Part shown: one piece after another, positions 37,658 through 43,277 of the stretch | How the letters are laid out: each line of letters opens with the position of its first letter | Position numbering within the stretch: the stretch's first letter is position 1 | From: Croceibacterium mercuriale | Lineage (GTDB): Bacteria > Pseudomonadota > Alphaproteobacteria > Sphingomonadales > Sphingomonadaceae | Direction of reading: 5' to 3' | DNA length: 64,000 nucleotides | Assembly (NCBI RefSeq): GCF_000802385.1 | Contig: NZ_JTDN01000001.1 | Coordinates: forward strand, 1,619,501 to 1,683,500 | Made by a program: the position numbers and the translations under genes | Notes under the pieces: model-generated | The model's database searches: none | The model's input: only the letters and a program-made list of their open reading frames with translations | What the model was told of the DNA's origin: nothing

Positions 37658-39770
<2,113 letters not shown>

Positions 39771-39782
39771 GGACAGCGGCCG

Positions 39783-42151
<2,369 letters not shown>

Positions 42152-42220
42152 AGGGTTATGGCGCGGGGCCGATCGTGCCCCGCGCCCTGCCCGCCGGCGG
42201 CCCGATGATGGAGCAAGAGG

Positions 42221-42712
42221 ATGGCGCAGGACAATCGTGGCTTTGAAGCCGGGCGGCAGCTCCGGATCGACCGGCTGTTGCAACGGCTGACCTGGGCAGG
42301 CATCGCCTGTTTCCTGCTGATTTCGGCCTTCGATATCCATCGCTGGCGGGTGACGCACTGGCAGCAGTTCGATGCCGCCTTTGCCATGCTGAAGGGCCAT
42401 CTGCTGGCCGTGCCGCCGCAACCATTGTGGTTGTATGCCGTCGGCTTTCCCTTCATCGCCGTGAACTTCTACGCCCATGTGCAGATCCTGCGTGGCGCGC
42501 GACGCGGCATCCTGCGCCTGTTCGTGGGCAGCGCGGCGGGTATTGCTCTGGTGCCGCTGGCCGGGTTGCAGACCGTAGGCTACCAGATGCTCTGGCCGGA
42601 ACTGCTGCGGCTGGCCGGCTACGCCATTGCCGGCGCGATCGCCATCATCCTGGCCTTCCGTCTGGACAGCCGCTCCTCCGCGATTATAGACGCGCCCCAG
42701 CCCAAGGATTGA
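42221..42712 (+). CDS. Four-helix membrane protein inserted between atpD and atpC
   Basis: 163 residues, no family recognised. Four hydrophobic segments: about 24-41 ([17 protein letters not shown]), 67-86 ([17 protein letters not shown]), 97-117 ([19 protein letters not shown]) and 128-147 ([19 protein letters not shown]); the termini are probably cytoplasmic with a polar Asp/Ser/Pro tail. Start is the ATG at 42221 with GGAG seven bases ahead. It lies 69 bp after atpD and its stop is 8 bp before the atpC start, so it is in the operon. It is not AtpI by sequence or position. A role in ATP synthase assembly or control is possible but unproven. Confidence 0.8.
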
Positions 42713-42720
42713 ACCTGACC

Positions 42721-42978
42721 ATGCCGCTGCATTTCGAACTCGTGACCCCTGCCAAGCTCGTCCGGTCGGAGGAGGTGCACATGGTCGTCGTCCCCGGCAC
42801 CGAAGGCGAGTTCGGCGTGCTGGAAGGGCATGCGCCGTTCATGTCCACCATCCGCGACGGCGCCGTGCAGGTGTTCCGCACCGAAGGCGCCGCGCCGGAA
42901 CTGATCCAGGTACGTGGCGGCTTCGCCGAGGTGGGCGACAAGGGCCTGACCGTGCTGGCCGAGCACGTCGAGGACTGA
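42721..42978 (+). CDS. atpC: F1 ATP synthase epsilon subunit
   Basis: 85 residues: the N-terminal beta-sandwich of epsilon ([57 protein letters not shown]). It ends right after this domain, so the C-terminal two-helix inhibitory domain found in long forms (about 130-140 residues) is absent; short epsilon is known in alphaproteobacteria, where other inhibitors act. AAGGATTG lies inside the end of the previous gene and serves as its ribosome-binding site. Confidence 0.95.
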
Positions 42979-42992
42979 CGCCGGCGGGCATC

Positions 42993-43277
42993 TCACCGGC
43001 GCTTCGTGCGCGTCGGTGCGTGAAAGTCGGGGGGCTTGTTCGCCACCCACTGCACGAAGCCGGCCAGTTCGGCATTCTCCAGCAGACGGGCACGATCCGC
43101 GCCTTGCCGCATCAGTTGCGCGTTGGTGAAATGCGCATGGATCGCCTTGTGGCAGATCGGGTGCAGCGGCACGGTGGACCGACCACCCTTGGCCTTGGGC
43201 ACGGTATGATGCTGCTGCACGCGGGCGCCGAGGGGCCGGCCGCACAGCCAGCAGACCGGCGCATCAACGTCCGACAT
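42993..43277 (-). CDS. HNH endonuclease family protein
   Basis: 94 residues. Zinc-finger-like CWLCGRPL at the N-terminus, then the HNH core: QQHHTVPKAKGG, LHPICHKAIHAHFTN. This is the compact McrA/HNH type. Function unknown; such orphan HNH proteins occur widely and are not by themselves restriction systems. It overlaps the end of the upstream EamA gene by 14 bases and converges on atpC, leaving only 14 bp between stops. Confidence 0.85.
   Translation of the reverse strand: MSDVDAPVCWLCGRPLGARVQQHHTVPKAKGGRSTVPLHPICHKAIHAHFTNAQLMRQGADRARLLENAELAGFVQWVANKPPDFHAPTRTKRR

Follow-up and report, generated by a model that had tools for sequence, protein, structure and literature searches.

The F1 operon of Croceibacterium mercuriale contains, between atpD and atpC, a gene (here called X) for a small membrane protein whose family is undescribed, lineage-restricted and confined to the atp operon as far as searched. 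Sequence comparisons indicate that X is a genuine gene, and that its protein is under purifying selection and faster-evolving than the surrounding F1 subunits. The leading reading, which we hold tentatively and draw from guilt by association and membrane location, is that X serves the ATP synthase at the membrane as an optional accessory; a reading of X as a passenger of the operon ranks close behind.

The X gene and its neighbors

The window analyzed here is a stretch of 64,000 nucleotides from the C. mercuriale genome, and positions are counted from its first letter. The features of the operon that concern X are as follows.

37676..38212 (start approximate), + strand: atpH, F1 delta subunit (NF004406, PF00213)
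38241..39770, + strand: atpA, F1 alpha subunit (TIGR00962)
39783..40664, + strand: atpG, F1 gamma subunit (NF004146)
40688..42151, + strand: atpD, F1 beta subunit (TIGR01039)
42149..42220, + strand: atpD stop codon and atpD–X intergenic region, GC-rich, with a strong stem-loop (GGCGCGGGGC...GCCCCGCGCC) predicted by folding
42210..42213, + strand: GGAG, Shine-Dalgarno-like sequence 7 nt 5' of the X ATG
42221..42712, + strand: X gene, ATG start, 163-aa protein with four transmembrane segments, family confined to the atp operon
42704..42708, + strand: AAGGA within the 3' end of X (last codons CCC AAG GAT), likely Shine-Dalgarno sequence of atpC
42721..42978, + strand: atpC, F1 epsilon subunit, short 85-aa form (NF009983, PF02823)

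The order atpH-A-G-D-X-C, as given in the original prediction, is correct because the neighbors match curated family models. Also borne out are the other predicted features of the locus, namely a ribosome-binding site of X's own, a spacing of 8 nt between the X stop codon (42710-42712) and the atpC ATG at 42721, and an atpC ribosome-binding site inside the end of X. The sequence AAGGA(T/C)TGA is seen again in four other genomes (G002, G001, G004 and G132). Most carriers have only a few nucleotides between the X stop and the start of atpC, and in several of them X provides the likely atpC Shine-Dalgarno sequence. The stem-loop between atpD and X reaches a z of only -1.6 against shuffled sequences; G002 and G001 have counterparts at the equivalent place. 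It could adjust the expression of the genes that follow atpD. On the other side of atpC, a convergent gene (42993-43277, - strand) encodes a 94-aa HNH-like protein with a PF01844 match just below the cut-off, and an HNH-like gene is also found 3' of atpC in many X carriers.

Relatives of the window's X are 88, 81 and 54% identical to it, the closest being that of Croceibacterium ferulae, and three more species of the genus, like many other genomes, keep the reading frame and the four hydrophobic segments. Values of dN/dS range from 0.05 to 0.18 (NG86, ten pairs), exceeding those of atpD (0 to 0.08) and, for the majority of pairs, those of atpC. Because dN/dS is well below 1 and residues are conserved, it is the protein sequence of X that is selected.

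Predicted topology and structure

That X is a four-helix membrane protein, as originally proposed, agrees with both the homologues and the structural model. The hydrophobic segments of X (residues ~19-37, 69-87, 96-114 and 128-146) occur at equivalent positions in 21/21 homologues. The AlphaFold model, built from 18 sequences (pLDDT 81, pTM 0.74), starts with a long helix, followed by one at ~45-62 and three more on the hydrophobic segments. Nearly all of X is membrane-embedded in the prediction. In every homologue the loop between the second and third transmembrane segments has 2-4 basic residues but no more than one acidic residue, which suggests an N-in/C-in topology with a periplasmic first loop. 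With that orientation the conserved stretch ending in ...W..FD..F (its first 10 residues are not shown) would face the periplasm, on the side opposite F1.

The model is without a distinctive known fold, and its structure matches are generic helical bundles. Foldseek gave no match at E 0.001 (best E 1.3 in the PDB and 0.5 among viral structures). The best VIA-align hit was TARP (Z 9.9, rmsd 4.0, 127 residues aligned), and no fold is assigned since this Z falls in the range of common helical bundles.

Comparison with known ATP synthase proteins

Sequence searches of X against Pfam, NCBIfam, PHROGs, PADLOC and the PDB returned nothing above noise, which upholds the original view of it as an unrecognised protein, and a search of the open-access literature found no publication on X. 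Small non-catalytic membrane proteins, some of them optional, are encoded in atp operons elsewhere, namely AtpI/UncI and the AtpQ/AtpR of N-ATPases. X is like these in being a small membrane protein encoded in an atp operon, but differs in having four transmembrane helices, in being sited in the F1 rather than the Fo cluster, and in matching no Pfam or NCBIfam model. AtpI/UncI in particular is a two-transmembrane hairpin whose gene opens the Fo operon, whereas X has four segments and lies between atpD and atpC; none of 18 X members matches ATPase_gene1 (PF09527) in Pfam, and X has no NCBIfam match. The zeta subunit (PF07345, DUF1476) is likewise a lineage-restricted extra protein tied to the ATP synthase, but it is soluble and its gene lies outside the atp operons (PMC9317440). 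X does not match PF07345, and the window genome has a separate zeta gene.

Distribution of X and linkage to atpD and atpC

A profile search of the GTDB family identified X in 18/397 genomes, belonging to 6/96 genera, and an order-wide search added one carrier (G506), for 19 homologues. A survey of the atpD-atpC junction revealed a divergent four-transmembrane protein in G033 (locus L048); used as a query, it led to a 32% identical protein at the corresponding junction of G099 (L061). The alignment of these two to the X profile spans 128 columns at ~15% identity (score 36.8, P 2.3e-5); the highest score among 60 hydropathy-preserving shuffles was 19.3, and the reversed profile fails. On this sequence evidence we take the two as distant homologues of X.

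All 21 X homologues adjoin atpD/atpC, linkages that are not independent events because X may be inherited in place. Eighteen lie directly between the two genes, two (L016 and L017) lie between them with extra ORFs in the gap, and one (L018, in G306) has the order atpD-atpC-X. Linkage thus persists down to ~15% identity. The extra ORFs of L016 and L017, which belong to one genus, include putative secreted proteins of ~180-210 aa; one that was tested had no Pfam match, and they are possibly related to putative secreted proteins at the junctions of L027 and L082.

No significant copy of X away from atp genes was found in the family, order or class-wide sample searches, a result that favors the proposed role, since unlinked copies would have counted against it. 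Neither the order search nor the class-wide sample yielded an X homologue outside the GTDB family. Weaker profile matches (single-genome E 0.0008-0.05, and one class-level E of 0.006) were short and partial, many of them within larger ORFs, and we regard them as chance hits; the four inspected (L006 and L057-L059) had no atpD or atpC nearby. A mobile origin of X was considered and set aside, as a single-sequence query found no match in plasmids or viral contigs. The strict genomic linkage expected of an ATP-synthase accessory or assembly factor is present in 21/21 homologues.

X does not accompany the ATP synthase throughout the clade: most genomes of the family with an intact atpD-atpC are without it. 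The same is true of close relatives, which counts against the original prediction. In G003, of the same genus, X is absent and the atpD-atpC gap is 65 bp, with no ORF and no remnant of X; this assembly is 77% complete, with atpD and atpC contiguous. Four further genomes that share genera with carriers (G023, G018, G027 and G104) are without X and have a closed junction. An optional accessory, however, need not co-occur with the ATP synthase throughout a clade.

A permissive junction and a possible passenger

A second reading, which we consider a serious contender though not the leading one, is that X is a passenger with a membrane function unrelated to the ATP synthase, kept by the high and steady expression of the atp genes and by a junction that tolerates inserts. 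In this family the atpD-atpC junction has the look of a place in the F1 operon where insertions are tolerated. In the other genera inspected the gap is mostly <200 bp with no ORF >80 codons, but several hold ORFs unrelated to X: a YHS-like protein (with a YHS match) in L025, putative secreted proteins in L027 and L082, a methyltransferase-like protein in L073 and a coiled-coil-like protein in L049 (names from reading of the sequence), and further non-X ORFs in L047 and L114. Since the junction accepts unrelated ORFs, position is a weak argument for the function of X.

The history of X also fits a passenger. On an atpD+atpC tree of 78 genomes the carriers are scattered, and no fewer than 9 gains or losses are needed to satisfy its starred branches. 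Monophyly of the four Croceibacterium X sequences is rejected (AU p 0.021), that of G004 grouping with genus g7 rather than with its own genus, and a single clade of all g7 sequences is rejected as well (AU p 0.035), p-values that are indicative only because the groups were chosen after viewing the sequences. This conflict between the X tree and the genera could stem from loss, from lineages exchanging X at the atp locus, or from an old duplication. Against a passenger, one free to settle anywhere would be expected elsewhere at times, and none was found; the X of G306 has moved, yet still lies beside atpC.

Epsilon, zeta and control of the enzyme

The original prediction had also noted the short epsilon, which is real (85 aa), and had suggested that control may come from another protein. 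A role of X as an F1 regulator or inhibitor, substituting for the inhibitory C-terminal helices of epsilon, would suit a gene that adjoins atpC in a genome with short epsilon, but we regard it as improbable. Most relatives that lack X also have an epsilon of 85-90 aa, the short form being usual in the family and having an NCBI model of its own. Published work describes a truncated epsilon for most alphaproteobacteria (PMC9317440), where zeta acts as the main inhibitor (PMC9317440, PMC10469736). Zeta (PF07345) is encoded in the window genome, in 21/21 X carriers and in 35/36 non-carriers tested, which rules out its replacement by X. Because short epsilon is general with or without X and zeta occurs in all carriers, X is not needed to explain control, and its almost wholly membrane-embedded prediction also speaks against this role.

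The zeta proteins of the window genome (L024) and G001 score 113 and 116 bits against PF07345, where most relatives reach ~127-149; by sequence, zeta may be relaxed or altered in these two genomes.

Least probable is that X sets gene dosage, its frame spacing atpC from atpD and coupling the two translationally while the protein hardly matters, a notion in keeping with the tight X-atpC junction and the Croceibacterium stem-loop but at odds with the selected protein sequence.

A candidate accessory of the ATP synthase

The optional-accessory reading has in its favor the linkage of every homologue to atp genes with none elsewhere, purifying selection, the tight atpC junction and the common topology; weighing against it are the patchy distribution, evolution faster than that of atpD, the permissive slot, and linkages that are not independent if X is inherited in place. 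As such an accessory, X would be a small inner-membrane protein, presumably sharing a transcript with the F1 genes and linked to them in translation. It would help the complex to assemble or to stay stable at the membrane and would not inhibit the catalytic site. A narrower form of the proposal, which we find possible but doubtful, is that X is an undescribed F1Fo membrane subunit or an assembly or stability factor, acting at the membrane or periplasmic side in some sphingomonads and repeatedly lost or exchanged at atpD-atpC.

Few gene sets are as well studied or as conserved as the ATP-synthase operons. In this family the atpD-atpC junction is seen to accept different genes. A membrane protein family that is under selection and has been found only within the atp operon offers a candidate lineage-specific accessory that can be tested, and the existence of congeners with and without X makes the comparison a natural one.
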